Shown here: positions 12,125-44,306 of the stretch, in pieces
How positions within the stretch are numbered: the first letter of the stretch is position 1
How the letters are laid out: the number at the start of each line of letters is the position of its first letter
Assembly: GCA_021292105.1 (NCBI GenBank)
Contig: CM037865.1
Span: 71,289,356 to 71,353,355, forward strand
Direction: 5' to 3'
DNA length: 64,000 nt
DNA from: Anadara kagoshimensis
Taxonomy: Eukaryota; Mollusca; Bivalvia; Arcoida; Arcidae
Translations under genes and position numbers: made by a program
Notes under the pieces: model-generated
The model's input: the letters and a program-made list of their open reading frames with translations, nothing else
Database searches by the model: none
What the model was told of the DNA's origin: nothing

Positions 12125-15100
12125 TTAGTTGAAAAAGAATCCCGAAGATTTGGTGTTTGTCAAGGAAATGTCGATATCAAAACAACCTGCTTTGAGATTT
12201 CCAGCATTTGTGTCAACAAGTTCCACGTGAACATGGTAATCGCCCTGGAAAATTACAAAAATATTTTGTTGAAATTTCAAAAACAAGTTAAACAAGAGGC
12301 CCATGGGCCTTAACGCTCACCTGAAGAAGAGTACATATCTTATGCAGAGGTTCAATGGTCAATGACATTAATAAAAGAGAATATCAAAATTTTCAGCAGT
12401 AAGGGCCAATAATATGCAAGTTTTTGCAAATTAATTATAATAATTATTATATAAGTATGCTATATATAACATATTTAAAGTCTAGCTACAATATATTATT
12501 TATAAACAGCTAAAATATCTGTATATTAAAATGTGCATTAGGCCAATACCTACAGTATTCCAATATACATGCCTATACAAAGAGTTTATAGTTTTTGAGA
12601 TAATTAACCATTTAAGTATTCGTTTGCATCTATGACCTTGACCTTTAAACCTATGACCTTCATTCATATATCAAAATTATTGTTGTGCAAATGCCTACAA
12701 TATTCCAATGTACATGCCTATACAAAAAGTTTATAGTTTTTGAGATAATTAACCATTTAAGTATTCATTCGCGTCTATGACCTTGACCTTTTAACCTATG
12801 ACCTTTATTCATATATCAAAATGATTGTTGTGCAAATGCCTACAATATTCCAATATACATGCCTATACAAACAGTTTATAGTTTTTGAGATAATTAACCA
12901 TTTAAGTATTCATTTGCATCTATAACCTTGACCTTTGAACCTATGACCTTCATTCATATATCAAAATGATCATTAGGCCAATACATACCTTATTCCAATA
13001 TACATGCCTATACAAAAAGTTTATAGTTTTTGAGATAATTAACCTTTTAAGTATTCATTTGCACCTATGACCTTGACCTTTGAAACTATGACCTTCATTC
13101 ATATATCAAAATGATCGATAGGCCAATACCTACAATATTTTAATATATATGCCTATACAAAAAGTTTATAGTTTCTGAGATAATTAACCATTTAAGTATT
13201 AGTTTGCATCTATGACCTTGACCTTTGAACCTATGAACTTCATTTATATATCAAAATGATTGTTGTGCAAATGCCTACAATATTCTAATATACATGCCTA
13301 TACAAAAAGTTTATAGTTTTTGAGATAATTAACCATTTAAGTATTAGTTTGCATCTATGACCTTGACCTTTGGACCTATGCCCTTCATTCATATATCAAA
13401 ATGATCGTTAGACCAATACCTACAATATTCCAATAACATGCCTATACAAAAAGTTTACAGCTTTTGAGATAATTAACCATTTAAGTATTAGTTTGCATCT
13501 ATGACCTTGACCTTTGAACCTATGACCTTCATTCATATATCAAAATGATCATTAGGCCAATACCTACAATATTCCAATATACATGCCTTTACAAAAAGTT
13601 TATAGTTTTTGAGATAATTAACCATTTAAGTATTCGTTCGCGTCTATGACCTTGACCTTTGAACCTATGACCTTTATCTATATATCAAAATTATCGTTAG
13701 GCCAATACCTACAATATTCCAATATACATGCCTATACAAAAAGTTTATAGTTTTTGAGATAATTAACTATGTTGGTATTCTCGGCCATCTGTGACCTTGA
13801 CCTTTGAACTCATGACCCTGATCTATTTATCAAAATGATCGTCATGTTAATACCTACAAATAACTGAAAATCCTACGCCATTTTCACAAGAAATGTTAAA
13901 AAAATAGCATTTTTTATCAAAGGTCAAAAACTGGGACATGACCTTGACCTTCGACCTTGACATCAATTGGAAGAAAATTGCAAGAAAAGATCAACAGTGA
14001 AAACTCCATACAATTATCTTCAGCTGTTATGAAGTTATAACAATAAATGTCTCATTTTAAAAATTACGTAATTTTACGCAAAAAACGCGTAACCCATTTT
14101 TCGTCTAATTTTCATGAAAAACACAATTTTTATGTTCCCAGGTATGCTGAATCCAAATATCCAATCAAAATTTGCCTGCACCTTTTGGTTTCAGAGAAGA
14201 AGATTTTTTTGTCTTTTTGCTATTTTTAGTAACAGCCGCCATCTTGTTGGGCGTGGCCAAACCCCGAACACAATTTTGAAAGGCTGCTACCCAGGCATGA
14301 TAATCACTAAGTTTCATCAAATATGGCCCAGTAGTTTTGGAGGAGAAGATTAAAATGTAAAGTTTACACACGACGGACGACGGACGACGCACGACGCACG
14401 ACGGACGACGGACGACGCACGACGGACGGTGATAGATTGCAATAGCTCATCTGAGCCTTTGGCTCAGGTGAGCTAAAAATTTATAGTTTTCGAGATAATT
14501 AACATTTTCGGTATTGTTTCGCATCTGTGACCTTGACCTTTGAACTCATGACCTTTTTCTAATACCTACAACATTCTAATATACATGCCTATACAAAAAG
14601 TTAATAGTTTTCAAGATAATTAACCATTTCAGTATTGATTTGCATCTGTGACCTTGACCTTTGAACCCATGACCTTTTTCTATACATCAAAATGATCGTC
14701 GTATCAATACCTACAACATTCTAATATACATGCCTATACAAAAAGTTATAGTTTTCGAGATAATTAACCATTTCAGTATTGTTTCGCATCTGTGACCTTG
14801 ACCTTTGAACCCATGACCTTTTTCTATACATCAAAATGATTGCTGTATCAATACCTACAACATTCTAATATACATGCCTATACAAAAAGTTTATAGTTTT
14901 CGAGATAATTAACCATTTTGGTATTGTTTCGCATCTGTGACCTTGACCTTTGAACCCATGACCTTTTTCTATACATCAAAATGATCGTTGTATCAATATC
15001 AACAACATTCTAATATAAATGCCTATACAAAAAGTTTATAGTTTTCGAGATAATTAACCATTTCGGTATTGTTTCGCATCCGTGACCTTGACCTTTGAAC

Positions 15101-15777
15101 CCATGACCTTTTTCTATACATCAAAATGATCGTTGTAACAATATCTACAACATTCTAATATAAATGCCTATATAAAAAGTTTATAGTTTTCGAGATAATT
15201 AACCATTTCGGAATTGTTTCGCATCTGTGACCTTGACCTTTGAACCCATGACCTTTTTCTATACATCAAAATGGTCGTTGTATCAATACCTACAACATTC
15301 TAATATACATGACTATACAAAAAGTTTATAGTTTTAGAGATAATAAGTATAATGAGAGGTAAAAAAAATTAGGTCACGACCTTCACAATTGACCTTGACC
15401 TCATTTTGAAGATACTAACAAGAAGATGTCAAAACTGAAAACCCCATGTCATTATCTGGTCAAGTAGTCAAGTTATAACAATTTGAAGCTATTTTACGAT
15501 TTTTTCAAAATTAAACGCAAAAACGCGTAACCCATTTTTCGACCGAATTTCACGAAATGAACAAACTACAGGCTTAAGACCCTAGAGAAGCCAAATATCA
15601 CATCAGATTTTTTCTCCAATCAATACTTTCGGAGAAGAAGATTTTTTAAGATTTTTGCACCCCTAGGTCACCTTGACCTAGTTATGGTAGCCATGGCAAT
15701 GCCACGAACAAATCTGAATTGCACCGACCCAGACATGCTTCTGACCAAGTCTCGTTGAAATCTGCCCAGTGGTTCGT

Positions 15778-15813
<36 letters not shown>

Positions 15814-15842
15814 AACGACGACGACGACGACAGACAACGGAC

Positions 15843-15874
<32 letters not shown>

Positions 15875-18800
15875 TGGCTCAGGTGAGCTAAAAAATTTAG
15901 GATTATGTGTCATATTATAATTTTTTGAATTTTCTGAATGGAATATTCAAAACTTAAGAATATGACACACAGTCATATTAACAACGATTTCTCGGTAGCT
16001 ATATTGGCGGAATGAATGCGTCTCCGCGAAAATCACACCGCCACAAAATATAATCTTCATACCTGGATAATTTGTTCTAGACCGCAAAAATAAAACAACG
16101 CAAATACATTGATCATCGTAAAACAGCGAAATAAAACATAATACATATAGTATTATAGAACAAACATACCTATCCACACCAGAAGCAAAGTAAACACTTT
16201 GAAACTGACAAATTAGGTTAAACACGCTAACTTCTCGGGAAGTTAGGTCGGGTGCTCATTTAGGGAAAGAATATGTAGCTTCTAAGAAGATAATATTTAT
16301 TGTTTTCGTTAATTATACAATATATACACTAGTGTACCTGTCGAACTTACAAAAAGGAGTCGGAGCTGGGATGCCTCGTGACCATGATATCGGTATCAAG
16401 TGACACTTATCCGTTAGCCGAGTGATAAACATTCGACAGATCTGCTTAGTATTTTAACTTACGTTGAGGTTCTGCGACTACAAGGAAACTAACGAATAAG
16501 TGCCACTTATAAATCGATCAAATCTCATTCGATTTTTACTTTATTTAAAATGATAGGTTAGATACTTAATGTAAACAAGGAGTCAAATTATTTAAATTCA
16601 AGGGGCTTCTCCTTTAAATTTGCAAAGAGCTGGGGAAAAATGAAGAAAAAATCGAAAAAGGCATAGCATTGACTTACCGACGCTAACCAGGACCATACAC
16701 CATCAATCTTTGGTACGCTGAATAAATGTGGCGGTAAAGTGTAGGACCCGGCGGTGATTGGACATTTACACGGCAAATGAAGTCCAGCCAGCTCTGATCT
16801 ATCACACTCGTGTGTACTATTTCCGTCAGAGTAACCAATCAAATCACAGAAATCGTACGAGCTGAAATGAACACAAAGATAGCTCGCATTGGTTCTGTAA
16901 AACCCGAGATTAGACTTTGTTGTTTACAAGTCCCTGTTCAAATCACAATTTTAAAAAACAAAGTTAAAACTTTGCAAAGTTCAGTTACACATGTTAACTT
17001 CCACCAGGAAAGTGTAACCGGTAGCTCTGGAAGGGTAAACACCTGTTTATCTGTAACCACTGCGGTAGCTCAGTTGGTAGAGTGCTCGTTCCGTAAGTGG
17101 GAGGTCGTGGGTTCGATCCCCGGCCGGGTCTGACCCAAGACTTGAAAGTGGGTAGTGACTTTTCTTTCGCCAAGCATTCGGCATTACGAAATGAAAGTCA
17201 CGGTTCTTTCGGATGGGAACTTAAAATAAACGAGGTCCCGTGTCACGGTAGGCTTGGCACGCTAAAGAACCCTGCTGTATAATGCCATCAGCGCAACGCA
17301 CAGTCGAAATTTCTGCACCTTCGCCTATAACTGGCGACGTCTCGATATAAGTGAAATATTCTTGACTGGGACGTTTAACACCATTACTCAACTCAACTCC
17401 TGTTTATCTTGCTACATCCGCTACGTAAATCGTTAACTTTCGTGGATTTTCTACAAATGACATAATCTTGTGATATTAAGTTCAGTTTTTTCTGTTCAAA
17501 TATACCGCTATGCCCTTATGTGATGGCAAAGGTGTTAAAACATGTTCCCTGACGGGGCATCGTGTTTGAATTTCTTAACTGTGAAACGGTTCATATTGCA
17601 TGTTAATTAAATTTTACCAACCAGTTTAGATCATGATACAAGCTATTAAATATTCCTTTTAGAAGAAATAATTTTTCACGTGACTGCATGCTTGGCTAAC
17701 GTATTAAAATTTTTTGACGCTTGGTTTTAGAATTAATTATATACATACCAACTACCAACGTTGGAAACACATCCCACCTTTATTTGTTGTCCGAGTAAAG
17801 TTTTGTATATGTTTACATTCATTTCAAGGCCATGACTGGTGATATCTTTATTTATCTGAATGTGTCCCCCCACTGTTAAATTACCAGGTAACTTTACAGG
17901 ATCTGGTTCCAATGATATATTGTCGATTGAGGCATATTGAGTTGAACGTTCAGCTGCACCTAAAAAAAACATGAATTTTATTTCTAATTACAGCAAAAAT
18001 GTATATATAATTACGGGATAACTATGTTACATTTTAAGAGTTCCGACCGTAAAACGTAGATTTTACTGTCGCAATATGCGGAGCCAGGTACACGGTATTT
18101 GCGACAGTAAAATCCACGATTTACGGTATCTCCATTCTAATGCAAATAAAAAATAACGCAAAAAATAATTGAATAAATGGAGAGTTAGACATTGTTTAGT
18201 ACAGACGCATCACTGTAGACCTACGTTACGCCACAAATATAGTTCTATCACTTACGCACTGATATCTATAGGTACTAGTATATTGAATTTATGGTTTGAA
18301 ATACAGATGCCGAATAAATATCAATATTTAAATGTTTCAAAGTCTTTGTTTACAACGAGGAATTATGTCATTGTTGTAAACAAAAGCACGTGTACCGGCG
18401 TGTAGGAATACATGATGTAATCGTAGCACAGACAGCACGCGACGTCATAACTCCGACCGTAAAACGTAGATTTTACTGCAGTCGGGATTCAATCAAAATC
18501 CTGTTTACAAAATCTTTGCATTAGAATTTTGCTTTACATGTTGTGGTTATGCTGGGAAGTTGTTTTTGCACGATCTAGGCATAAATGGTAAAGCTTTGCT
18601 CGTCTGTTAATATTGGTTTTAAATGGATTGGTCACAAAACAAGGTCTGATGACTTAACACATTATATGCAAAACATGCAAACCATTTTTTCATAATTAGT
18701 TTATTTTATAATTAGTCGTGAATTTAATTGTTTACTTCGTAATCAACACGTTTTTATTCATTATTTTACTTCTGGATAGAAACTGCGATTGTGAGAATTT

Positions 18801-20429
18801 GTACATGATCAAACGTTTAGTATTCGTTAGACTATTGCCATATTAACAATCCGATATAAACATACCAATAACAATCTATAACAAAGCATTTGGCAAAATT
18901 CGTTCGGTTACCATATTTCAATCATTCTAAATTCTGGGGAATTTAATTCAAACAAATATAATGCTTAGAGTAATGCATTTTACTTCTTTGCTGCCTTAAA
19001 TAAGACATGACCGTTTTTCCGACGGTTACAAGAATTTTTTACACGGGGTAGACTGTTTTTGTTGGCACTTCCAAAACATCCAAAGTTCCTGCAAATTTTG
19101 AAGTTTTGAAGCGAGAGACATTTAAAACAAATTGTTCTTTCAAAGAAAAATGTGTGTGTGTGTGGGAGGGGGGATGGAATCTATCTTGCAAGGAGTATCA
19201 AACATAAAAACAAATGATCTTCGCTAATTTCCGAGCATTAGAAAGAGGCACCTTGAATATTTGTTTCGAGCAATGCCAAAATAGTCTCACAAAATTGATG
19301 TAAAAGGTTCCAGAGACTGTTAAAAATTTGTTATTTGGAGAAAAATTTTTTTTTGAGGACAAGGCATCAAGAGGTTCTCATTTCTATTTACGTTAAACAA
19401 TAAAACAAACAACGGACATTTAATAAAAAGTATCCTCTCCATAGCAGCACCGGCTTGATCCAGTTTTCATTATTACTAGGTCACCTATGAGGCACGTCAA
19501 TTAAAAATCTCGCGTTAATAAACTTTTACCTATGTACATCTACACGTCACGTGACATTTTAATTAATTATTATGAAACGAAAAACCAATTATTTCTTGGT
19601 TTGGTAAAAACTTTGAAACCGGCAATTTATATTAAACTTTCACCACAGAAGTGAGGCCCGGTGCTCCAAAAGTGTAAGCATCTCCTGTTTAGCTAGCTAC
19701 ACCCGCCACGTGTGTATTTTGATATTTTATTCTTTTTCATGATTATTGTATTTCAAATTGAAAATTAATGCATTCCATATGTAACAACAGAGGCCTTATA
19801 TTTATGTAGCCCCACGGATAAAGTATTGCATTACATGTAAAGATGTTTGTATTGCACGGCAACTCCACTACATCCTAGTTTGTCCAGTTTAATAATTCTT
19901 ATCTGTAGTTCTAATACTTTCAAAGTATATTGTTGTTGATGTTTCTGTGTCTAGGATTGCCATGGATATAATTGATTACACACGTGACGGTTGTAGCAAG
20001 CTAAACAGGAGGTGCTTACCCTTCCGGAGCACCCGACCTCACTTCCCTGGTGGAAGTACACGTGTCATACCTAACTTGTCAGTTCCAAAAGATTTTACTT
20101 TGCTTCTGGATTGTGTTTCGGACATGAATAAGTATGTTTGTTTTTGATGCAACAGAGTCAATAAGAATAGTGTCCAACTTTTAACGATTTTGTATTTTTA
20201 TACCATTGCTTTCGGTTGTCCCTCCAGTTACATGAAACATAATTAAACATACAAGGAATTGTTTTGACAAAAAACAAGGTAAAATTTTGGGGTTTGTATA
20301 TAATGTTTGGTATTTTCGACCATAGTATGGCTTGCTTATTAGATGGAAACAAAGACTATACAAAATTATTATTGAATTATATGGAAGCAGTATAAAGATA
20401 TGTAATTTTAATACTTATATTAAGATGGC

Positions 20430-20466
<37 letters not shown>

Positions 20467-22875
20467 ATACCGATCCATGTCCAAAGCACAACCATAAAGC
20501 CAGACATATGTTTGACCATGGACTGTTTTTGATTCGTTAAAACTGGATATTTTAAATATTGAGAATATGGAATACAAAGATATTTGTCAAAACAATAACA
20601 AAAAAAAAGAAAAAAAAAAAAAAAAAAAACCATACCAATTTATGTCCAAATCACAAAAACTTTGAAACTGACATTAGATTAAACACGCGAACTTTCACCA
20701 TTGAAGTGAGACCGGGTGCTCCGGAAGGGTAAGTGTCTCCTGTTTCGCTAGCTACATCCAAAACGAGTGTAATATAAATGGAAAATGAAGGGAACATGGA
20801 ACCAAGGGACGTCAAATAGATCCCGGACAATCATGGACACAGAGACTTATTATAAAACTTATCAATGTTGATAAAGTTAACAATAAAAAACCTGAAGTCA
20901 TCACATTTACCAAATAGCTTCATTTGTAAGCTTTCGTGGGCGTCGTAATTGAGATATGAGTCTAAATATCAAACGGGACTTGAACAATCAGTCGTATTTT
21001 TTATATCAAGCTCTCTTTCAATTTAGAATGCGGATATTGGTGTAAAGTGTAGAAAAATTAAATGTTTTTATACTTTTTAACAAGATAATGTATTAGAAGC
21101 AAGATGTTTAGATATGTCTTTAAAATGATTTAGAAATTTCATTTGGTTGATGCCTGATATAGAAATGACAGTATATGAATAAGACTGAAAACCATCTTTG
21201 ACAACTGTCAACTTTTTGTTAGATTTACTAATAATGATTCCCTGGTGGAAGTTAACATGTTTTACCTTACTTGTCAGTTTCAAAGTATATACTTTGCTTC
21301 TGGAGTTGTTTCGGGCATGGATTAGTTAGTTTGTTTTTTTATTAGAAGTACATTTAGAGAAACTTGCTTTATAACTTTCCTTGTATGTATATTTGTGAAA
21401 TTGGAGAACCCAATACACCTTCTTCCTCGTTACGATTGATAACAAAAAACTCAAGAACTCCCCAATGATTAGAAACAACTTTATAGTTCTAGTTTATACA
21501 GGGTTATTTGATATACTATCTAAACCAAGCTCGTTAATAAGACATTCAAGCTAGAATATCTTACAAATGAGAATAATAATGTTGGAAGTCTTATCATTTG
21601 GGGCAACATATGTCTGTGAGAATTGCCTAAATGTCTGGACCGTACTGAAAACGGTTTAGTACTCATAGACCGTTTAAAGTTTGACAATCGTTGTTTTAAT
21701 AAAAAAAATCTTACAACCTTTACACAGTAGATATGATGTTAAGTTCAATATCTTTAAATTTAGCCCAACGTCTTGCATACTTTTTAACAGAATCCATTTT
21801 GAAATTCTGCCCTTCCTTTGCTTTGGGATTGTGATTTAGAGATGGATTACTGTCTTTGTTTTTGATTAATTGTATTGTTAATTTGTTCTTAAAATTAACA
21901 TCATGGCAATATCTATTGATTTCATTAATATCAATTGAACTATTAGCTTATTATTTAAATAATAAGTGTTAAATTGAAAGAAAACATTACACAAATGATG
22001 AACATGAAAATATCTAACTAAATAGCAATTATTTTGCTAAAATGTTGTTTACGTATTATATCAATTTTAATTTTAAAGACCTAGACGGCCATTTCGGAAA
22101 ACAATTCTTTATCAGTAGTGCTTGAACTAAAATTGTAAAACCAAAAATATTTTCAAGAGGACCAAAATATAACCAATTTTAGCTAAGGAAATGCATAAGG
22201 GAGTATACTTGAGCTTTTGAAAATTTTCAGATTTTAATTACCAGCAACTTTAGACAATAGTATATTTGACTTATGTTTTAAAAGTTATCATCATGCATAG
22301 AAATAATTATAAAAATAATACATGTAAATTGAAAAAATGCAGAAGTAATCAAAGTAGCAAAAATAATACATGTATTTTACAAAATTGCAAAAGTACTCAA
22401 AGTAGCAAGTACATGTATCATAAATATATGATAATCAATGAAGAGGCTGTTGCTCTAAAAAGCTTCTTTAACCTTGTGACGAATAAGGTCCATGAGCCTT
22501 TTTCTTTTTCTTTTTCGTTTTTTGTTCAATACACAGATTTATATTCTTTTTTTGTCAGATGTTATTATAATGCAGTAAAATTCTTTGTGTCTGGAATACA
22601 AACAGAAGCACAACGCGTGCAAGATATTTTATGCTGTATATAGCATAGCATGCATAGGTCGACCATACCATCTTAAATAACGATGGTACATAAATACATA
22701 TGTTAACCTTTGATGATAGTCTACTATTTCTTAATGTTAAAAAATCAAACTCATACGTACTTAAACAGTTAGTAAACTTGAGTTTTGGTGTAGTTTTCGC
22801 AGGAAGCTGGATTGGGAATATGAATGCTGACACTTGTGTCAGTATCACGACAAACAAAAAACAGAAAATTGCCAT
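12125..22875 (-). CDS. GM2 ganglioside activator-like secreted protein, copy 1
   Basis: Four exons on the minus strand: 22761-22875, 17749-17959, 16678-16861 and 12125-12244 (stop). Phases are 1, 2 and 0, and the product is 209 residues. Exon 1 gives a signal peptide (MAIFCFLFVVILTQVSA) and ends at the first conserved cysteine (FTNC). Exon 2 has the family hallmark SLEPDPVKLPGNLTVGG and ends VGCVSNVGS(C). Exon 3 has LPCKCPITAGSYTLPPHLF, like the GLPCHCPFKEGTYSLP region of GM2A. Exon 4 starts GDYHVHVELVD and carries the last cysteine. The mature part has eight cysteines, enough for the four disulfides of GM2A. Family members fold as a lipid-binding beta cup and present glycolipids to lysosomal hydrolases; the ligand here is unknown. 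Introns are large and full of mobile DNA. It is the first of four tandem paralogues and closest to copy 2. Confidence 0.88.
12291..14475 (+). mobile_element. Helitron-like non-autonomous element with tandem-repeat core
   Basis: Begins near AAGAGGCCCATGGGCC / GCTCACCTGA and ends with a hairpin (CTCATCTGAGCC TTT GGCTCAGGTGAG) directly followed by CTAA at 14444-14474. A terminal hairpin plus CTRR is the Helitron 3' signature, and a tandem-repeat core is usual for Helitron-related short elements of molluscs. The core is nine ~146 bp monomers, followed by a conserved non-repeat block (AACGCGTAACCCATTTTTCG) and a CGACGGA-rich microsatellite just before the hairpin. It sits in intron 3 of GM2A-like gene 1. 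The class assignment is inferred from ends only; there is no Rep/helicase gene. Confidence 0.6.
12560..13860. repeat. ~146 bp tandem array carrying TGACCTTGACCTTTGA motifs
   Basis: The phrase TTTATAGTTTTTGAGATAATTAACC recurs about every 146 bases, and each unit carries TGACCTTGACCTTTGAACC and usually a second ATGACCTT. On the minus strand this reads TCAAAGGTCAAGGTCA, two AGGTCA half-sites with a 5' extension. Nine units are present before the pattern degrades near 13,860. Confidence 0.9.
14476..15892 (+). mobile_element. Second Helitron-like element, related to the one on its left
   Basis: Starts directly at the CTAAAAA end of the first element, already inside repeat units, so it lacks its own 5' end or was split by the first insertion. 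Six diverged TGACCTTGACCTTTGAACC units (14,520-15,260) lead to the same AACGCGTAACCCATTTTTCG block, a GACGACGAC microsatellite, and the terminal hairpin CTCACTTGAGCC TTT GGCTCAGGTGAG with CTAA at 15860-15891. It lies in intron 3 of GM2A-like gene 1. Confidence 0.6.
16160..16260 (-). mobile_element. Retroelement 3' tail copy (family R)
   Basis: Starts with the shared 3' end (AACAAACATACC), then AAGCAAAGTAAACACTTTG, GACAAATTAGGTTAAACACG and a degraded CTTC...GAAG hairpin. It is truncated after GGTCGGGTGCTC. Confidence 0.75.
16325..16455. mobile_element. MITE remnant, same family as 33839-34041
   Basis: The segment GACACTTATCCGTTAGCC...TGATAAACATTCGACAGATCTGC parallels the right half of the TA-flanked MITE at 33839-34041. 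GTACCTGTCGAACTT at 16335 resembles its other end. Diverged and partial. Confidence 0.45.
16925..17440 (-). mobile_element. Retroelement 3' tail copy split by a SINE
   Basis: 16925-17052 and 17399-17437 together form one minus-sense tail copy (AAAGTTAAAACTTTG, ACATGTTAACTTCCACCAGG, GGAAGGGTAAACACCTGTTTATC, then TTGCTACATCCGCTACGT). A tRNA-derived SINE at 17053-17398 interrupts it. It is in intron 2 of GM2A-like gene 1. Confidence 0.88.
17053..17398 (+). mobile_element. tRNA-derived SINE with 11 bp target-site duplication
   Basis: The head is tRNA-like: the A-box region GTAGCTCAGTTGGTAGAGTG and the B-box region GGTTCGATCC are correctly spaced. The non-tRNA body includes GAAAGTCACGGTTC and GTGTCACGGTAGGC, and the tail is ACTCAACTCAACT. 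CCTGTTTATCT occurs on both sides (17042-17052 and 17399-17409), fixing the insertion boundaries. A diverged relative is at 49472-49670. Confidence 0.92.
18043..18128. repeat. Foldback with ~35 bp arms
   Basis: CCGTAAAACGTAGATTTTAC...GTCGCAATATGCG pairs with CGGTATTTGCGAC...GTAAAATCCACGATTTACGG. The left-arm sequence (CCGACCGTAAAACGTAG...) occurs again in the same orientation at 18451-18480 next to ACTGCAGTCGG, so two related pieces lie about 400 bases apart. Confidence 0.75.
19601..19716 (-). mobile_element. Retroelement 3' tail copy (family R)
   Basis: Contains AAAAACTTTGAAACCGGCAA, a degraded CTTTCACCACAGAAG hairpin, CCGGTGCTCC and TTTAGCTAGCTACACCCGCC. Both ends are truncated. Confidence 0.8.
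19927..20145 (+). mobile_element. Retroelement 3' tail copy (family R)
   Basis: Starts inside the ORF-end segment (GATGTTTCTGTGTCTAGGAT), then AAGCTAAACAGGAGGTGC, the CTTACCC...GGAGCACC hairpin and TCACTTCCCTGGTGGAAGT. It ends at the shared AAGTATGTTTGTTTTT. Confidence 0.88.
20630..21025 (-). mobile_element. Retroelement copy with tail plus internal RT remnants
   Basis: Reads from the shared 3' end (CATACCAATTTATGTCC) through the hairpin tail. It then jumps by internal deletion to CCTGAAGTCATCACATTTAC and AATCAGTCGTATTTTTTATA, which match the RT-coding copy near 35,740-35,860. Confidence 0.8.
21238..21337 (+). mobile_element. Retroelement 3' tail copy (family R), inverted relative to its neighbour
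   Basis: Contains GATTCCCTGGTGGAAGTTAA, CTTACTTGTCAGTTTCAAAG and CATGGATTAGTTAGTTTGTT. Together with the opposite-sense copy at 20630-21025 it forms an inverted pair about 710 bases wide. Confidence 0.85.
22058..22240 (+). repeat. Dispersed repeat, copy 1 of 3
   Basis: Core ACAATTCTTTATCAGTAGTGCTTG, then AAGAGGACCAAAATATAACC and GGAAATGCATAAGGGAGTAT. It matches copies at 26000-26195 and 53813-53910. Copies 1 and 2 lie in intron 1 of GM2A-like genes 1 and 2. Confidence 0.75.
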
Positions 22876-25787: not shown

Positions 25788-25825
<38 letters not shown>

Positions 25826-28040: not shown

Positions 28041-28082
<42 letters not shown>

Positions 28083-32800: not shown

Positions 32801-32839
32801 AACTCAGTTACAAAATACAGTTTATTGGTCACCATGACA

Positions 32840-33010
32840 CTACTTTTTACCAAAAATACAAGAAAAACCGGAACATGCGTGGTCCAATGTAAACTCAATA
32901 TCGTAACATCCGGTTTGTACGTCATTTTCAACAACAGTAGCATGTATATGATAGTCTCCCTGTAATAAAAGAAAACAGATAAATGTACAATTATTCATAT
33001 CTAGATAATG

Positions 33011-33048
<38 letters not shown>

Positions 33049-34324
33049 AAAACTGACATATTAAGCTATATACGTGAAGTTCCAATAAGGCAGGGTGTTC
33101 TGGAAGGGTAGACACTTTTCGTCTTGCTTACTACATCTGCCATGTCAGAAATGATGAATGATTGCAAAAGGCAATCGGGTCTTTACGCTTATACACTAAT
33201 TATTGCGGTTATTTCTTATAGTATTGGTTCCTGTGGAAGCGCATTGCTGCCAACTAAGACGATTTCAAGTCGTACGTATGAGACAATAAATCATATAAAT
33301 AAGACATAGTATCTCGTACGCACGGCTTTATGTTTTTAGTTGGCAGCAAAAGGCTTCTGTGCGTTCCTTTTTGAGATAATGGGAACTATTCCAAATAAAT
33401 TCTTTTTAAACGTTTTGATACGCTATTCCAAAAAACATGGTATCTATAATCTCAAGAACAGAACATATATTATCAAAGCTCATAAAATTAACAGAATTCT
33501 TACTACGTCCTAATATTGAGGACATGCGTCAATGCAGGTATCGTCTTGAAGTATAACAGTTATTTCATATAGATAAAGAAAATATTTTTGTCCTTTTAAG
33601 GATTTTTTAAATATTGTTGAGACTATTCATGTTTTTTAACTGTTTATACATCCAGTACCAAATGGTTTTGTATATCTACGCGAAATAAGGGTGAAAACAC
33701 AGAGAAGAACGGAAGAATAATTCTGGCACCGAAGTCTATATTATACAGTCTGATACGGTATGTTTGGTTTTTGGTTGAGGCGTGCTATTAAGCTATCACC
33801 TTTTTTCGTCCGTATTTAATCCGCGATTTCACATGAACTACAGTACAGACCTGTCAAAAATTTAACACTGAGCTTACGGAAAGGTTCAAAGCTCGGCTGC
33901 CGAGTGACAGAAATATGGATAGCTAGCTACTAAGATATATATCGAAAAGCTGCCATGGTTAATATAACTATTATATGATGAACTACCGATTGGCACTTAT
34001 TCGTAAGACTAGTATTAAACTTTCGACAGGTATGTACTGTATTTACTTACTGATGCAAACACTGTCCATATTCCTGCCAGTTGTGGGATTTCGAACACGG
34101 ATGGATGAAGGTTGTATGTTCCAGCCATTATTGGACATGTACATGGAATATTGTTGTCAGTAAGCTGTGGGGGACACGTTGTTACACCATTCACAACAAA
34201 TGTATCACTCAGTAGTTTACACAGATCATAGTTACTGACAATAAATAATTAAGACGAGTCTTCAGTAAAAGTAAAACAAGAAAACAGAAAATGATAATTA
34301 ATAAACATGTTCTTAGCAACGACC

Positions 34325-34377
<53 letters not shown>

Positions 34378-37300
34378 AGACTTTTGTTGTTATTTAATGG
34401 ATGTAATACCTTAACTGTTAATTATCATGTGAACATTGAATACTGAAACTGAAATTATGAGAAAGGTGAAATTATTGAGCAAATACTAAAAAATCATTAA
34501 AAAGGACTGCAACGATTAGAATTATGCTGTTCTCTAAATCGACAACAAAACATTAACCACACATTAACAGTTCAGATGCATATTTTCTTAGTGTTAATAC
34601 TATCAAAGGACCTAATGTTTCTGTATGATAACCACAGACCTTAAGCTATATAGGTTTAATTAGTTATTCACATTTCGAAATAGACGCCTTGTATTAAAAT
34701 CCATCTAGGCGTTTAGAGCAAAAAGTCATATGGAATAACTCCCCTTTAAACTCCGGGTTACTTTATGTCTTAATTTATTAAAAATAATAAAATCATGACA
34801 TAAAACACATAAACTTACCAAGTTCCTACATTAGACACACATGGTATTGTGGTGTATCCTAATATTGGAAGATGACGCTTTATCGTGACATGTACCTTTG
34901 TGTTAGCGGTAACATTGTGGTAGAGATGTGCCTGTCCATTGACAGTCAGTTTACCAGGAACTATTACAGGGTATGGGTTCAAGTGAGCTGCATCAACGTG
35001 GCCGACTTCTATTGTTCTGTCGTCTGAAATATCGAAATACAAAAACTCAATGTACCATTGTTTTCAACTAATATAAAAGGTTGTTTAAGAATATTTGAAA
35101 TATCTGCCCTGTCAAATGATTAGCATACGCATGTTGTATTGTATGCTGTGTTAGTCTAATGGCCGTCTATATCTACATCTTAAATTAAACCGGAGATTAT
35201 AGGCAAGTAGTTTAATGAGTATAACTCATTAGACATTATCTGGAACGTCTTAATTGTAATTCAATCAAAAACAAACATACTAATCCATTTCCGAATCACT
35301 ATCCAGAAGCAAAGTAAAAACTTTGGAACTGACAAGTTAGGTTAGACACGTGAACTTCCACCAGGGAAGTGAGGCCGGGTGCTCCGGAAGGGTAAGCACC
35401 TCCTGTTTAGCTAGCTACACCCGCCACGTGTGTAATCAAAATTGTGTGAAAGGAACATGGAACTATGAGACGTCAAATATATCCAAGGCAATCCTGGACA
35501 CAGAGACATCAAACTTATCAACAATACTGTGATGACGGCCATAAAACTTTTTGAGGGCCTTGATAAGCCTAGGCTTGCAATATCCCTGAGTCAACAATTT
35601 ATTTGCAAGCAGCCTACTTCGTTGTACAAAGTCCCCGTAGTGGGAACAAGCTCTACTTTAGCGTATTAATTGGGAAACAAATACACCATAAGCAGGAGAA
35701 GCAGGTATATTGCTGCATAAAAAAGGAAAGTTGACAATAGAAAAATTGAAGTCATCACGTTTGTTATAAAGTTTCAAATGTAGCCTTTCCTGTGCGTCAT
35801 AATTCAGTTATAAGTCTAAATATGAAGCAGAACTTGAGGAATCAGTCGTTTCTTTTATTTCAAGCTCACTAGGATAGATGACATTTACATAGTCTCCAAA
35901 TTTAGGATTGTTAAGAGACAGAACGTCATCTATATATCTGTATGTTGAGTTGAATGATTTGGCGACAGTTTTCTCTCCAGATTTAACAAGGTTCTGCATA
36001 AATTCTGCTTCGTAAGAATAAAGAAACAAATCAGCAAGCAATGGTGCACAGTTTGTACCCATTGGTATACCGATTGTTTGCTGAAAAACTATATTACCAA
36101 ACACAACAAATATGTTATCTATCAAAAACTCCAACATTTTGTTGATGGTATCTTCAGTATATTTTTGTTTGGAATCCGTATGGTGCTTGACAAAATAACC
36201 AAAATCCCTGTTCAGCACCAGATATTTGTATCTTGGCTTACCGTTTTTGTAAAAGAATTGATTTTCATTTCCTTTAGCAAATGTTTGTATAACGAAAGTG
36301 TTATCATCAGCCTATTATATGTATTCTAGAAGTGAACAAGTCTTTTACTTTAAATTCAACGTTTTACTTGTTAACATCTGCAAGCAGAAATCACATCAAG
36401 GAAAACTATGTACATGTGTGCAGTGTGGAGTCTCTGGTGCCCAGTACAAACAAATAAACAAACAAGTATAGGCACTATACACGGATTACTGGTTGTTTAT
36501 AGTGCTCCCGTGGCTGCAATCTGTCTAGATCTGGTGCAGCTATAACCCCATTCGGCAACTGGTTCCAGTATATTGTTGCTCTTGGGGGAAAATGAGTGCC
36601 GGTATGCATCAATGGATGTTTCACTTCAAGTGTAATGTTTTCTAGTTTATTGGTGCATGTCAAAAGTCGATAATGAGAAAATTTCTGGACACGTTTTCTG
36701 CTTAAACCTTTCTGTGCCGTGCTGTTTTGTACAGGATATGATGTGAAAACATATTTCTTCATTCACAATATTTTGTTTTTTATCTAACACAAATAAGAAA
36801 CAAATAGCGCACAATTAATTTTAATTTCAGTTATTTTTAATGGTGTCTGTAAAGAAATGTATTTAATATGCATTTCATAACATCTAAAACACATATTTAT
36901 ATATAAACGTTTTTGACATTCGTCTGGTAAAAAAAAAAACTTATGCCCTTTTCCATTGGCCATTCATTACTCTTTGTACTAACTCTGCTGGCTGTATAAA
37001 GGTATCATATAGATACATTATTTAGTTTCATTATCTTTCACTTGTACGTTTTTCTTGTTAAGACATTTCCGTTTTCACAGGCAAGCCGTGAACATTGCTG
37101 ACAGTATAATCCTCATCTCCACAAAATTTTAACCTTCTCGCAAGCATATCTCGTAAAAACTGATGTTTAATAAGTTTGATGTTCAACTAGAAATGTCGGG
37201 CATAGTAACATTTTTTCTTATACAGAACATTCATTATGTTGATCTAGGATTCGGTCTCATTAGGGATCTATTTTCCTAGCTCTGGTAAGTTTTTCAGTTT

Positions 37301-37633
37301 ATTCTCTCAGCGTATGAGTACGGGTTTAGATAAAACAGCGTCAAAACGCCAGGGCTAGACTTTAAAAATTTGAAATTACTCTAAAACAGATAAATCATAA
37401 AACACATATGGACAGACATAAGACAACTAGAATTACGAGCCATATGTACAAATGTTAAGTTGAAATGACATTTAAAAATGTTTTTGTATTTTTACTAACG
37501 TTGTGTGCTACCGTTTCCGCAAGGGATATATGATAATTTACTTACTGCAGTCGGAGTACCTGAATCTAATAGAACAAAGACACCCAGATATGGCACAAAG
37601 CATTAAAATGACGTACTTCAACATGGTTGACAT
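32840..37633 (-). CDS. GM2 ganglioside activator-like secreted protein, copy 3
   Basis: Minus-strand exons: 37546-37633, 34819-35023, 34051-34234 and 32840-32959 (stop). Phases are 1, 2 and 0, and the product is 198 residues. Two in-frame ATGs (37633 and 37624) precede the signal peptide MLKYVILMLCAISGCLC; I used the first. Exon 1 ends RYSDC, the first family cysteine. Exon 2 has AHLNPYPVIVPGKLTVNG and IPCVSNVGT(C). Exon 3 has NYDLCKLL and IPCTCPIMAGTYNLHPSVF. Exon 4 starts GDYHIHATVVEN and ends with CSGFSC, adding two cysteines absent from copies 1 and 2 but shared with copy 4. All splice sites are consensus and the frame is intact. Likely a secreted or lysosomal lipid-binding protein; the ligand is unknown. 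Confidence 0.88.
33013..33046. repeat. (AC)n microsatellite
   Basis: About 17 AC units in intron 3 of GM2A-like gene 3, about 55 bases upstream (gene sense) of the exon 4 acceptor. A longer (AC)n stands at 34324-34376 in intron 2. Confidence 0.95.
33048..33150 (-). mobile_element. Retroelement 3' tail copy, diverged
   Basis: AAAACTGACATATTAAGC, GTGAAGTTCCAATAAGG, AGGGTGTTCTGGAAGGGTAG and TTGCTTACTACATCTGCC follow the family R tail order. It lies in intron 3 of GM2A-like gene 3. Confidence 0.75.
33225..33365. repeat. Foldback with ~30 bp imperfect arms
   Basis: GAAGCGCATTGCTGCCAACTAA at the left pairs with TTAGTTGGCAGCAAAAGGCTTC at the right, with a shorter inner pair (TCGTACGTATGAGAC / GTATCTCGTACGCA). 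MITE-like. Confidence 0.7.
33839..34041. mobile_element. TA-flanked MITE, 203 bp, beside a splice donor
   Basis: Terminal inverted repeats run TACAGTACAGACCTGTC...TTTAACACTGAGC on the left and TATTAAACTTTCGACAGGTATGTACTGTA on the right, bounded by TA, as in Tc1/mariner-derived MITEs. It has no ORF. A relative is at 59223-59440 and a remnant at 16325-16455. The right end is nine bases inside intron 3 of GM2A-like gene 3, directly after GTAAGTAAA. Confidence 0.88.
34235..34818 (-). other. Intron 2 of GM2A-like gene 3
   Basis: Contains a long (AC)n run at 34324-34376 (about 26 units). The rest is AT-rich without a recognised element. Confidence 0.75.
35268..36310 (-). mobile_element. Longest family R retroelement copy, with RT remnant and hairpin tail
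   Basis: In the minus sense it reads: RT-coding region (36310 to 35463), stop codon, then a ~195-base 3' tail ending AGTATGTTTGTTTTT at 35268. The tail has three short stem-loops: GGTGCTTACCC..GGAGCACC, ACTTCC..GGTGGAAGT and CAAAG..ACTTTG, between CACGTG boxes. This is the reference copy for the roughly twenty truncated tails in the window. It sits in intron 1 of GM2A-like gene 3. Confidence 0.88.
35463..36310 (-). pseudogene. YIDD reverse transcriptase remnant (Penelope-like type)
   Basis: About 280 codons stay in one frame from near 36310 to the TAG at 35463-35465, broken only by TAA codons at 35808-35810 and 35658-35660. The RT core includes QQTIGIPMGTNCAPLLADLF and the catalytic YRYIDDVLSLNN, then SYLDL, a NFPF.CSNIP block and KKFYGRHHSIVDK near the end. 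The GIPMG / YIDD type resembles reverse transcriptases of Penelope-like elements, but I could not test the class and no endonuclease domain is visible. The N-terminal half is missing. The two stops and the 5' truncation mean this copy is dead. Confidence 0.8.
36475..36762 (-). pseudogene. C-terminal fragment of a LINE-type ORF2 (uncertain)
   Basis: A 95-residue open frame ends HFPPRATIYWNQLPNG, then VIAAPDLDRL. This resembles the F.PR...WN.LP..V..A.SLD tail that follows the reverse transcriptase in CR1/Jockey-like LINEs. No RT core is seen upstream, and the piece lies just 5' (minus sense) of the family R copy. It is a separate, older insertion or a coincidental match. Confidence 0.5.
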
Positions 37634-37869
37634 GGAGTCGAACTGAATTCTGGCTGTAGAAAGTGCGTCTTGATTTCGGGACAGCTGTCGATCTCAAGCA
37701 TGTGTAACCTCGATTATTGCAGATTTTAAACTTATCGCGATCTTAATAATCTAGATTCTAGGTCTAGGTATTAGTGCATGCATTTACGGTTCTCATTCAG
37801 TATAATTATGTCTATTGAATAAACGTTTCGCCGGCCATGCCTATTATGTTCCGCCATCACAGGTACCAA

Positions 37870-37920
37870 AGCAGTGTCGACGTCACGGCAACTAATGACG
37901 TACTAGTGTCAGTGACGTCA
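37870..37920 (-). promoter_or_regulatory. CRE-like cluster upstream of GM2A-like gene 3
   Basis: A perfect TGACGTCA palindrome at 37913-37920 is accompanied by TCGACGTCAC at 37877 and TGACGTAC at 37896. This is a more GC-rich patch about 240-290 bases upstream of the gene 3 start. CREB/ATF binding is an inference from the motif only. Confidence 0.4.
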
Positions 37921-38303
37921 TTAACGCCACGATTCGGAGTTTTCATTTTTTGCGTGTAATTCAAGCATGCATGCCGGTCCTTTGTCAAAACATTGTGTGC
38001 GTGGCCGGCGATCCGTCAATTCAAGCATTGAAAGATTGAAAGAAATTGAAATTTGCAATATGTAAAAAACATGGTGTATTTTATTATTACTATTTTTGAA
38101 ATTTATTTGGTAGGAATTTAGACTGTTTTGGCGGGAATATCCACAAATACTTGTAAGCAAGATTTTTCTTTCAAAGACACGGGGTTTTACATATTATAGT
38201 TATTTTAAAACGAGAAATACGTTGGGTTATAAACAAAATATTCACAATTTATGTTGGAATTGCCACTTGCAAAATCTTGAAAGTTATTTTTTATATTTAT
38301 GTT

Positions 38304-38353
38304 ATGTGTTACTTTTGAATTTTTATGAAATAATACATTCAAAAGTAGCACAT
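38304..38353. repeat. 50 bp hairpin element, copy 1
   Basis: GTGTTACTTTTGAAT pairs with ATTCAAAAGTAGCAC around a 16-20 base loop (TTTTATGAAATAATAC). A copy in the opposite orientation lies at 63211-63260 and differs at only a few positions. Confidence 0.85.
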
Positions 38354-40309
38354 GGCAATACATTTACAATATTAATATTTGATATTTCTTCTCAGAATTT
38401 GCAACAGGACAATTATGTTAGTATTACAATACTGGTTTTTATTTGGCAACCGCTGGTTCTACCAGTGAACGGCTTAGCGCCATTGATCCCTTCAGAGCGT
38501 TATCTACGCCTTCTTCACGTCACACATTCCGTCAAAGGGTTCAGTCCCGCCTTCTACACAGTCATCGCAAAAAAGTTTTCTAACTTGCGCGACTTGACGA
38601 GCGGTTGACAGCTGAAATGTAGGGATTATTTTTGTCAATAGGTTTTTGTAAAAAGAAAATCAGCGATTGCTAATATATTTATGTAAATTTTGGTATAATG
38701 ATTGAATGAAAAAAATGACTTAAAAATGAAATAGATGGATCTGGGAGTTTGGGATGTAAGTTTTTATATCGTTCCGCACAAACGTTTGATCACGTGACAC
38801 AATGGTAAATGAAAAGTCATTGATACTTATTTTCGAGTCTTGGCTAGACCCGGTCGGGGTCCTGTCTTTTAAGATTTTTTTTTACATCAGTGCGGTGCAA
38901 GCACTCTTAGTAATTATGCAATGATTTAAGATTAGAACTGCCTCTATCTTGTTAGTTTACGATGTTATATTTTTCTATTCAAAATGCATTACGTTTTATT
39001 AAAGATGCATACTTATCCTGTAATGTATATTCACTGTTAAGTTTGACAGTCGTAGAAATAGATTTTCAAACGTTCAAAATAAGGGATGGTTATGGTTATA
39101 CAAAAATACTAAAATTACATTAAAGCTTGCTAGTTTGTGCTTTATGTCGTCACCTTCTAGATTATAGAGCATCATTGAGATAGCACCTTGTTTATTTCAT
39201 ATTGCCAATTTTACGTAGAATGTCTCTTTGTAATGTTTTGCCGATTTTTTATTTGTGTACAAATGTTATGCAAAGTATTTTAAATCTAATTAATGCACAT
39301 GGAAATGAAAGTGTGTTGTACATACTGGTAGATATAGCGGAACGATCTTCAAATTTATGCGTGCAAAACTCGTTTTACTTTGTAATTTTCGGATCCCGAT
39401 ATTTTTCAGATCTTGATCCAGACCGTGGCCTGATATGTAGTTTGTTTGTAGTTTATTATATAGAGTGCTTGGATTGGGAGGTTCAAACATTGTATTGGCA
39501 TTTCCCGATAAAAATTAATGTTTATATTCTTATGATAAAAAGTGATCTTGACTACTTATTATGTGCTGCTTTTTATTACCCTTTATGCACCTTTTTAAAC
39601 TAAAGGTTCATCTTCAGTATATTCAGGAGAAAAACTGGTTAATAAAACATTGCGCTCATAGGTTATGGGCTATTTATGTAGTAAGCTAAAACCATTCATT
39701 GAAATAATAACATAACTGGCAATAAAATCGCCTATTTGCGTTTGTCGTTTCAGAATTTTGAAAATGTGAACGCTATCGATATCCATTTGACTGACTTTCT
39801 AAGCGTACTGTTGGAATTATGTCGGGCAATAAGAATGTTATTGAGTTCAAAGTCACTGATAAGATATACATATGTATGTCAAGACTATATTATATTAAGG
39901 AGTTACAATCAGATCACGCCACATCAGGCCACATGAATGAAAGAATGCAAAACCGACATATTTAAATTATTCTGCTTTGGAACTGATTAATTCCCTCAAA
40001 AACTACCAAAGTATCTACAAATGGTGTCAAGTGGTCATAAAATGTGGCACCGTAAACGACCATCGCTTCTGTTTCTTTTATATTCAAAATTTCAAAACAT
40101 ACTTGTTTGCATATCTATTGTACCTGTATATGTGGTAAATTAAATTGTGAACTTAATTTAAATTTAAGTGATGTCATGGTTATAATTATAACATATTATA
40201 TTGAAATTCACACAATATAGAAGTATAGAATAAATCGCATACGTGTGATTGGTTTACATATGGGAGTCAATCTCACGTGCCACCGACTGATGTTTATCAT
40301 AGATATTTT

Positions 40310-40482
40310 GATTAAACGGGTGTCGGGTGAAGCTAGCTAAACAGGAAGTGCCTACCCTTCCTGAGTACCAAGTCTCACTTCCCTGGTTGAAGTTCATCTG
40401 TTTAACTAATTTGCCAGCTACAAACTTTTAACTATTTTTGGGATTTTAGTTTGAGCATGGATTGGTATATGTGTTTTTTATA
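40310..40482 (+). mobile_element. Retroelement 3' tail copy (family R)
   Basis: Contains GAAGCTAGCTAAACAGGAAG, TGCCTACCCTTCCTGAGTAC, CTCACTTCCCTGGTTGAAGT and TGGATTGGTATATGTGTTTT. It is diverged from the younger copies. Confidence 0.85.
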
Positions 40483-40628
40483 GAACAGTTGAATGTAAAA
40501 ACACATATTTCTCCTCAATGCTATCCTTGGCTCTAATTCCACCTTTTACATCCAACAGGACAATACGTATGTAAGTCATGTTATGTGACTAATGTTAATT
40601 TGCCATTTTCTGGTACAAAAATAGGATA

Positions 40629-40826
40629 CTAAGAAACTGCATCTAATGACATAACTAAACGATTGATCATTGACACGTAGCCGACATCAACGTCTGTTCT
40701 CTCAGCGCTAGCTTCAAAAGGAGGGGGTTCATATTCGGGATTTTCAACTAAACTTTTCAATCCCATTGAATCCACCAGCTTAATTAACCCACGTCTGCTT
40801 CGTGGAATGTGTTTTTGTAAGTTGCA
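40629..40826 (-). CDS. Possible last exon of an unknown protein
   Basis: A 65-codon open stretch follows a good acceptor (CCGTTATGCTTCAG) and ends TAG at 40629-40631. The sequence is hydrophilic and looks more protein-like than surrounding AT-rich frames (LVENPEYEPPPFEASAERTD, then VDVGYVSMINRLVMSLD). No family was recognised. It lies 470 bases beyond the stop of GM2A-like gene 4 on the same strand, so it could be an alternative terminal exon or a separate gene or pseudogene piece. No matching upstream exon was found. Confidence 0.35.
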   Translation of the reverse strand, partial: CNLQKHIPRSRRGLIKLVDSMGLKSLVENPEYEPPPFEASAERTDVDVGYVSMINRLVMSLDAVS

Positions 40827-41102
40827 CTGAAGCATAACGGCACACAAAATGCGATCAATATGTTACGGCCAAATAAAAGCAAGTGACGATCTTATCGAGA
40901 AATCACTTCATACTGACGAAAAATGTGTACTATTGTAAATATGAAAATATAATGTACTTCTTAAATATATGAACGAATTATAAAATTGGAACTGATTTAG
41001 CTGTAAGTCTTAACCTTTTGATCTTTAAACTATAAAACTGATAAAGGTTTGATATTTTATTATCTATAAAATACAAGGACACAGACAACCTTCTTTAGTC
41101 TA

Positions 41103-44100
41103 TTATCTTCTCATAATATTACACAGAAACCCTGTACAGTATGGGTTTTGTATTGTAAGACCATACTGATAACATCCGATCTGCTGGTTGTTGGTTGTAT
41201 CCGTAAGTGTAAATCTGATTTGATAGTCACCCTGCAAAAAAAAAAATAATAATAATAATAAAAAATAAAAAAAGTAAAAAAATGGAAAAAAGTATAAACT
41301 TAAGGTTTAAAAACGGTAAAAACATTTTTCAATGCTCATTTATGTAACTCTTAAATAAAAAAGAGACACAAATCTTAAAAATGCATATGCCAACCGTCAA
41401 AAGCATGGAAAATATTAAGAACACCAGTCAAAACCTTTAATTTATCCTGGTTTGTTGAATATTTTCGTTACTTCAATCATAGTTATTACTAAAAAAATTA
41501 TTCCCATAATTCCAAATTACATGTATCGAACTATTTCAATCCAAATAACCAATCGACCACGAACTCTTAAAACATAGAGGATCTTGCATGAGTGTTTATG
41601 TAATATTGAATTTATTAAACGAGTTGAATAATTTTTTATGCAACGAGCCTTGGCGAGTTGCATAAAACATTATTCAACGAGTTTAATAAATTCAGTATTG
41701 CATAAACACAAATGCAAGATTCTATTTATTATATAATCCGATAAAAAACGAGTTTTTCGTAGATTTAAAAATTGTCTTCTCATTATAAGAAAACAGCTGA
41801 TTGACCGAAACACAACAAATTCACGTAACTGTCTACATGCGCCAAAAGTGATCCTGCTGAAATATTAAAAGTAAATAATAGTCTGTCCGCAGGATACAAA
41901 AACAAAACAAACATTTTTAATTTAAATACAATGTATCTTCTTTTTAGAAGAAAAGTACAAAGTATCGGCTTAAATTAGAATCAACAAGCAGTGTCAAATG
42001 AAACAAACAACTGTGAACTAGGTGTGACGTCACTCTGGAATGACTTTTATGCTTTTATGACGTCATACTCATTCAATACGATTTTTATTGTATGACCGTA
42101 ATGCATGGATTATTGAGTAGATTATATAATAAACTTATTTATCTAACATTAGACTAGTTTTTCTACGAAATACAAGTTTTATCAAACACCTAGATACAGA
42201 ATCTTGTATCACCACACTGTGGTGATACAACATTGGCGGTAAAGTGCACGTGCACGTTATCATTGTGACGTCATTCGGGAGAATGTAGAACAAATGTCAT
42301 AACATAGTTCAGTGGTTTTCTGTGGTAAAATGTATTTTTTTCACACTAAGTATTGTTTTTTTTATTATTTAAAATAACCTAATTGGAAATGTTAGATAAA
42401 AATATTATATACACAGTGTGTAGGTACAACCCTTCGTATCAGGTCTCGTCCTTTTTTCGTAGCTGTATCACTACTCGTCGCGCAAGCGCGACTCGTAGTG
42501 ATACGGCTACGAAAAAAGGACTCGACCTGATACTGAGGGTTGTACCTACACACTGTGTATATAATATGTATTTATACAATAGGTATGCATCGGTATGATT
42601 GTGGTTAATTCTAACTAAGTGGTGCCAGGGGATCATCATCACTGTCACATTTCATTTTTCAAAAGAACACTTACCACTACAAGCCAAGACCACATTCCCG
42701 TTGCAGTCGGAATTCTAAACTGTGAATGCTGAAGAGTATAAGTACCAGCAAGGATTGGACAAGTACAACCGATGTTACTGTTTGTAAGTTGCCATGGGCA
42801 GTTTGTTGTTCCGGTTCTCTTAAAGGCTTGATCCAGAAGTCCACACAAATCATATTCACTTAAATATAAATAAATAAATAAAGTGAAACTTATCTTAAAA
42901 GTAGAAGAAAAATGAAATATAATTAAATACATGTTTTGCAGGTTTACGTTTGACTTTTTTCATTATTTGGAACTAAAATGCTGCTTCTGTGCCTTGTAAA
43001 TTCGAAGAGCGAAAAGATGAGACGATACAAGTCAGTCAGATATGAAAGGTTTTTTTCAATAATTTTAAACACATACGCGATAGTTTTATAAAAGAAAATA
43101 CTAAAAATGCATTTGTATGTTAATACACTTTTAAATTGAAACAAAAGTGAACATAATCGGTATACCTTACCAGCTTCCTATCATGGAGTAGCAGGGGATC
43201 TCCAAGTGTGTCTGGTAATAACCGCCCCACAATGATATGGTTCGTGTTATCTGTACTCCAAGTTTGATTCCTTCTGTCATGTTCCGCATCACCTCGAACT
43301 CAATCGCTGCAGTCAATGTACCCGGCATTTCAACAGGGTACGGACTAACACTGGCACTGTTTACGATAATAGCATCGTTACGTCCACTATCTGTAAAGAA
43401 GGTATATAAACAATACATCTATGAAATTGTACTATATTGCAAATAAGTGTCTTGCACTCAAAGAAATCAAGAGCCGTAAAAAATCGTAAGGCACTACATA
43501 TTATTCCTGTATTATTTTTTGTAGCTCAGCGGCGCTTGGACAAACATTTTGAAACCATTTATTTTTATACAAATAAACACATTAATTATCAAAACCCTGA
43601 TACAATTTTTATAGAACGACCGATTTTAGATGAACAGCTTATTGGTTAGAACGGAAGGAAGTAGAATAGAGTAAAAGAGGTTTACGTCCAAAACAAATTC
43701 GCTTTAGTTTGAGGCGGCTAGTTCAGGGATAGTGAAGTTTACAGAAACCACTAACCTACGACAGAGAACTGACAAACTTTCTTAGTTTGATCGGATTGAG
43801 TGGGATTCTAGTCTAGGCGATTTGAGGCGCTGTGATTTGTCAGCCGGGGCTTTAGACCACTTGAATACCGAGACCTAATATGAGAGTATGAGGTATACTT
43901 GTAGCGATATAATAGAGGGGTTTGTATACATTTCCAGTATCCAGACCAACCGTGCAACTATTTCACGAATGTTATCAGGAACAATCTAGATTTCATGTTT
44001 GTGTTAAAAAGTAATAGAATTTATAGAACTTAAACTGCCTGATTGTCGTGATTTGGGAGAGTAACTACGGGTTGATAATGTATGTACCATTAAAACATCG

Positions 44101-44306
44101 TCTTTGGAACATGGTTACAATGTAAAATATAAACTAAAATCCAAGTTAGTTATTGATAACTTTGTCGACTATTATTAAAATTAACTGAAATTTAAAATAA
44201 CACAAACATTATACTTACTGCAATTGAAATATGTGAATCTTTGATAACCAAAACATCCACAGAGAACAGACACAAAAAGTAACGTTTTGAAAACACTGAA
44301 AAACAT
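41103..44306 (-). CDS. GM2 ganglioside activator-like secreted protein, copy 4
   Basis: Minus-strand exons: 44219-44306, 43171-43390, 42675-42858 and 41103-41231 (stop). Phases are 1, 2 and 0, and the product is 206 residues. The signal peptide is MFFSVFKTLLFVSVLCGCFG, and exon 1 ends TYFNC. Exon 2 has SASVSPYPVEMPGTLTAAIE and a slightly longer loop before IPCYSMIGS(C). Exon 3 has EYDLCGLL, IGCTCPILAGTYTLQHSQF and ends MWSWLVV. Exon 4 starts GDYQIRFTLTD and ends with CTGFLC, the same extra cysteine pair as copy 3. The frame is intact. A TATATAA stands about 85 bases upstream of the ATG. It is most like copy 3; the lipid ligand is unknown. Confidence 0.88.
41580..41721. repeat. Foldback element with ~65 bp arms
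   Basis: GATCTTGCATGAGTGTTTATG...GTTGAATAATTTTTTATGCAAC pairs with GTTGCATAAAACATTATTCAAC...CATAAACACAAATGCAAGATT around CGAGCCTTGGCGA. It lies in intron 3 of GM2A-like gene 4. Confidence 0.9.
42204..42230. repeat. Perfect 27 bp palindrome
   Basis: TTGTATCACCACA-C-TGTGGTGATACAA, with 13-base arms and a single central base, in intron 3 of GM2A-like gene 4. Its GTATCAC/GTGATAC core also occurs within the foldback at 42402-42566. Confidence 0.9.
42402..42566. repeat. Long foldback element, ~80 bp near-perfect arms
   Basis: ATATTATATACACAGTGTG...GTATCACTACTCG on the left and CGTAGTGATAC...CACACTGTGTATATAATAT on the right are inverted copies meeting at CGCGCAAGCGCG. The loop is only about 3-6 bases. 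It ends about 110 bases from the exon 3 donor of GM2A-like gene 4. Confidence 0.93.
43391..44218 (-). other. Intron 1 of GM2A-like gene 4
   Basis: About 830 bases with no recognised repeat, foldback or extra exon. Intron 2 (42859-43170) is likewise empty. Confidence 0.6.

Follow-up and report, generated by a model that had tools for sequence, protein, structure and literature searches.

The window, a stretch of 64,000 nucleotides of Anadara kagoshimensis contig C9, carries a tandem array of four GM2-activator-like genes. The array is real and mostly intact, an ordinary expansion of a gene family, and its recent history is unusual. According to the explanation preferred here, which is given a probability of about 0.6, the genes would encode lipid carriers of the GM2 activator type, mainly digestive in function, and would represent an old separate lineage that has grown by tandem duplication, with a second block in inverted position and with gene B of the window out of frame.

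Array structure and protein identity

The gene models were rebuilt from the raw sequence. Positions 12125-44306 are occupied by four minus-strand genes, A to D (copies 1 to 4), of four exons each, as listed below. The limits given in the initial annotation proved exact: copy 4 opens with its ATG at 44306, and the stop codon of copy 1 ends at 12125.

12125..12244, minus strand: gene A (copy 1), exon 4, stop included
16678..16861, minus strand: gene A, exon 3, 184 nt
17749..17959, minus strand: gene A, exon 2, 211 nt
22761..22875, minus strand: gene A, exon 1, signal-peptide exon, 115 nt
23731..23847, minus strand: gene B (copy 2), exon 4, stop included
24512..24695, minus strand: gene B, exon 3, 184 nt
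25538..25748, minus strand: gene B, exon 2, 211 nt
27715..27804, minus strand: gene B, exon 1, signal-peptide exon, 90 nt, one base out of frame
32840..32959, minus strand: gene C (copy 3), exon 4, stop included
34051..34234, minus strand: gene C, exon 3, 184 nt
34819..35023, minus strand: gene C, exon 2, 205 nt
37546..37633, minus strand: gene C, exon 1, signal-peptide exon, 88 nt
41103..41231, minus strand: gene D (copy 4), exon 4, stop included
42675..42858, minus strand: gene D, exon 3, 184 nt
43171..43390, minus strand: gene D, exon 2, 220 nt
44219..44306, minus strand: gene D, exon 1, signal-peptide exon, 88 nt

Every internal junction printed for the models has a GT donor and an AG acceptor. 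Exon 3 was of the annotated length of 184 bases in all four rebuilt genes. The intron phases 1, 2 and 0, formerly assigned to the whole array, apply to three of the genes but not to gene B, the exon 1 of which is out of frame.

The proteins of the joined exons, proposed earlier as the material for an ML-domain check, matched PF02221 in all four cases with 44.2-55.8 bits (curated cut-off 22.7 bits; gene B without exon 1). The kinship to GM2 activators that had been claimed was also recovered, since the nearest solved structures are GM2 activators. When a profile of the four proteins was compared with the PDB, four GM2 activator sequences were obtained with E values from 1.5e-28 to 1.3e-24 (1.5e-28 for 2agc and 3e-26 for 1g13), followed by one lipid-transfer protein at 0.1; with gene A alone, the four matches were all GM2 activators. 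Neither the four-protein profile nor gene A returned any MD-2 chain from the PDB at E up to 1. The similarity to GM2 activator, at a profile E value of 1.5e-28, is beyond chance.

The ML domain is common to the array proteins and the vertebrate GM2 activator (GM2A; PDB 1g13, 2agc and 1pu5), although the window-type proteins are only 28-33% identical to the 1g13 chain, which is the human one according to PMC6675134. In the alignment, all eight cysteines of 1g13 have counterparts in A, C and D and in A' and B', which are the corresponding copies of the second block described below; for position 94, the counterpart in A, A' and B' sits one column away in the alignment. The eight cysteines of human GM2 activator form four disulfides. 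Genes C and D differ from the 1g13 chain in having two additional tail cysteines. Where the human chain has Trp63, presumably a residue of the lipid loop, none of A, A', B', C and D shows a Trp; this, like the low identity, counts against the preferred explanation. The motif PGNVT, which we take to be an N-glycosylation site in the human protein, is kept at the human position in A and A', its N being replaced by D, K and T in B', C and D. Hydrophobic N-termini are present in A, C and D, and window gene B is out of frame there. Judged from these three N-termini, the array proteins are likely secreted.

The inverted second block and gene B

A second block is located on the same contig, about 4.5-4.6 Mb away, with the genes A', B', C' and D' on the opposite strand. 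All four have open frames and GT/AG junctions. The part of the window involved is the following.

10884..49067, no strand assigned: stretch collinear with the inverted second copy C9:66724001-66764000 (L033-L036)

The at least two rounds of duplication formerly proposed for the array overlooked this block, which adds either a further duplication or a second haplotype. The chance that the second block is a retained alternative haplotype, for example that of an inversion heterozygote, with four genes on each haplotype and gene B of the window as a null allele, is put just short of even. A heterozygous inversion together with an unpurged contig would give an inverted placement megabases away, and the alleles of highly heterozygous marine invertebrates can differ to the level of 95-98% identity. 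Over 23-49 kb of the window, where identity to the second block is 79-99% of alignable bases, 21 of the 26 1-kb bins reach 94% or more, in favour of a haplotype; the two bins of lowest identity are near gene C. The region around gene A argues against it, since over 11-23 kb eight of the 12 bins have fewer than 400 alignable bases (zero at 13-15 kb) and identity over the alignable bases is 84-91%, a value that depends on the method (74-83% in local matches with gaps counted, 50-80% with whole introns forced into the alignment).

Probes along C9 detected a second inverted copy at five of the seven places tested, the array itself among them. Three of these places, identical at 95-98%, are compatible with alleles: 71.349 Mb (98%), 71.400 Mb (95%) and 71.240 Mb (98% over 1,314 bases). 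Against a haplotype, the copy of 71.000 Mb is only 90% identical, over about 3,150 bases, and the duplication is bounded, as the 4 kb probe at 70.000 Mb gave no second copy. This negative result places the bound on the inner side, and it also ruled out a palindrome continuing to its centre. At 72.500 Mb, the best 40 candidates comprised, apart from the probe itself, nothing but repeats and a local tandem array, which is a weaker negative. The pieces at 71.400 and 71.000 Mb have more copies nearby on C9, mostly more diverged, so that the flanks are complex. Provided that it is unbroken from one probed place to the next, the duplication spans about 403 kb or more.

Divergence between the blocks was also estimated from exons 2-4, exon 1 being left out of the dN/dS table. 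The values of dS were 0.14 for A/A', 0.03 for B/B', 0.11 for C/C' and 0.06 for D/D', that of A/A' being high for alleles and thus a further point against the haplotype. The dN/dS ratios were 0.36 (A/A'), 0.10 (B/B'), 0.27 (C/C'), 0.04 (D/D') and 0.19 (A/B), all well below 1. As a real duplication, the second block would bring the total to eight array genes at two locations; as a haplotype, it would leave one gene null on one haplotype. Either outcome bears on annotation and on the reading of GM2A-like responses in bivalve digestive gland and haemocytes.

The gene in question is gene B. Its exon 1 (27804-27715, 90 nt) has a stop codon in frame just ahead of the donor, and hence there is no through-going open frame in gene B as assembled, which in this block would be unable to make its signal peptide in frame. 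The exon 1 of B' is open and one base longer (91 nt). That the frameshift is an assembly error, and window gene B intact, is a real possibility, though judged the less probable outcome. Exons 2-4 of gene B are open and evolve under the B/B' ratio given above, and the region of exon 1 shares 96.7% identity with that of B', with only a single one-base gap, all of which would be expected of an intact gene; the base is, however, absent from the assembly as given. A different first exon is possible as well, as other candidates for the signal-peptide exon, e.g. near 29650, were obtained among the best 14 of a hydrophobicity scan and in a motif scan. The exon at 27804 was preferred because it is the sole candidate that resembles gene A exon 1 and is kept in B'. 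The preferred explanation retains gene B as out of frame.

Relationships among the copies and with other genes of the genome

The copies had been arranged in two pairs, 1-2 and 3-4. The first pair stands, with 73% amino acid identity between A and B', but the second is not supported: C and D are 40% identical (28-35% with the other copies) and non-sister in a weakly resolved tree. In a second alignment, the identity of C was 39% with D and 38% with B. The array would have grown by tandem duplication, A and B being the clearest pair.

A search of the genome with gene A yielded at least 25 matches at E up to 1; among those listed, ten correspond to the window array, 11 to the second array on C9 (66.73-66.76 Mb), two to C17, and one each to C15 and C19. 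The Pfam ML model, run against the whole genome at E up to 0.001, matched seven places, on C2 (four), C13 (two) and C14 (one). None of them is among the gene A matches, and the array was not reported at this threshold. Single exons of the array are weak on their own. The ML genes of C2 and C13 that match PF02221 too appear to be of a different kind, NPC2-type, judging by eye from five of the seven places (L001, L003, L004, L005 and L007).

The relatives on C17, L027 at 11.95 Mb and L030, are of GM2A-type sequence, and a fragment of L027 reaches 49% identity with the human chain. The exon of L027, from which the C17 intron positions were read (L030 being known as tblastn alignments), crosses GSC without a break and stops close to human residue 111; the genes of the window, by contrast, have introns inside the Cys75 codon and before Gly135 (residue numbers counted by hand). 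The C15 and C19 genes are split at the same intron positions as the window genes. The 184-nt exon 3 was rejected as a mark of the whole family, as this exon has 211 nt in the C15 model and 196 nt in the C19 model. Two GM2A-like last exons are present on C19 (L054, 839-943 and 7112-7222), which suggests that a further small cluster of tandem genes, with introns placed in this way too, is located there.

A phylogenetic tree was obtained from 12 rows; it is unrooted, with long branches and weak forks, and the start of C17 exon 4 was guessed. The human chain and C17 were set apart from the ten other rows with support of 94/96, below the starred level of the tool, and A, A', B and B' constituted one fork (90/93). 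The forks that separate C from D are weak, as is the grouping of D with C15 and C19 (77/79), which carries a long-branch warning. Midpoint rooting, used for the drawing only, placed human and C17 beside A/B (88/91). The tree is compatible with a separate window-type lineage and proves neither such a lineage nor the array as one clade. The array is nevertheless probably an older GM2A-like lineage separate from the C17 genes, for which the intron positions, different in C17 and shared by C15, C19 and the window, are a better argument than the tree. That the genome holds a more GM2A-like gene beside the array is supported in outline, the C17 gene grouping with the human one and having other intron positions.

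Putative function and gene A divergence

The encoded products would be small proteins of the ML-domain type. Each would begin with a segment like a signal peptide, followed by a cysteine-rich domain for lipid binding, and those of C and D would also have the extra tail cysteines. GM2 activators bind glycolipid and assist beta-hexosaminidase A. After entry into the secretory or lysosomal pathway, the array proteins would extract individual glycolipids or other lipids from membranes, either ingested or internal, and pass them on to hydrolases, chiefly in digestion. A role in digestive or lysosomal lipid transfer is likely.

That the proteins are instead soluble immune lipid sensors, similar to MD-2 or to the LPS-binding ML proteins of arthropods, and not digestive cofactors, is regarded as unlikely. 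In its favour, GM2 activator is listed as 25.86-fold at 8 h post challenge in Manila clam haemocytes (PMC4234419), an induction that also weighs against the preferred explanation, and is tabulated among those activated by LPS, PGN and poly(I:C) (PMC7430831), and an ML-domain protein, of a subfamily not stated, marks one oyster haemocyte cluster (PMC12064177). Against it, the nearest solved relatives of the array proteins are GM2 activators, with no MD-2 chain at E up to 1.

Returning to the preferred explanation, an expansion of this kind has precedents. GM2A-like genes are among the expanded families of the fan mussels Pinna rudis and P. nobilis, six being listed for P. rudis (PMC13093298), and an expansion of GM2A-like genes in bivalves is common to Pinna and to this array. 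Bivalve GM2A-like expansion is therefore already in print, and the array is new in detail, not in kind. Its notable points are the frameshifted copy, the inverted second block and the separate intron pattern.

Gene A differs from A' in an uneven manner. In exon 2, 19 of the 21 differences are at exon positions 101-200, a clustering with a permutation value of 0.00045 (20,000 trials; the test was chosen after the pattern was seen). The stretch corresponds approximately to gene A residues 72-105, and its ten amino acid changes align to human residues 50-71 (counted by hand), which we take to be the strand and loop lining the lipid pocket, including the lipid-contacting loop. The reading of the two blocks as long-diverged arrangements, with gene A the most different, its ligand loop diversifying under selection and the inversion suppressing recombination, is improbable. 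Relaxed constraint or partial gene conversion would account for the clustering no less well than selection.

Intron 3 of gene A has 4433 nt and its counterpart in A' has 816 nt. Two 145-base tandem arrays are located in this intron of the window gene, at 12522-13859 and 14561-15344. Intron 1 of gene C contains a reverse transcriptase-like fragment (35811-36311, minus strand; E 2.4e-4, under the curated cut-off). Dispersed repeats of about 50-160 bases occur in both orientations, at 19972-20089, 31509-31611, 35322-35439, 40305-40406 and other positions. Positions 1-8253 of the window are a tandem satellite with a 187-base unit broken by 157-base variants; the counts of open reading frames refer to those beginning beyond the first 9 kb.

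Head to head with gene D, a carboxylesterase open frame that is not of the family occupies 45343..47007 on the plus strand (555 codons; PF00135, E 1e-125). A common role of both genes in lipid digestion is conceivable. A Kazal-domain exon is duplicated at 55400-55654 and 56021-56275, the 85-residue translations differing at one position, and part of a Ras-family gene is present at 61422-61742 on the minus strand (E 2e-14).
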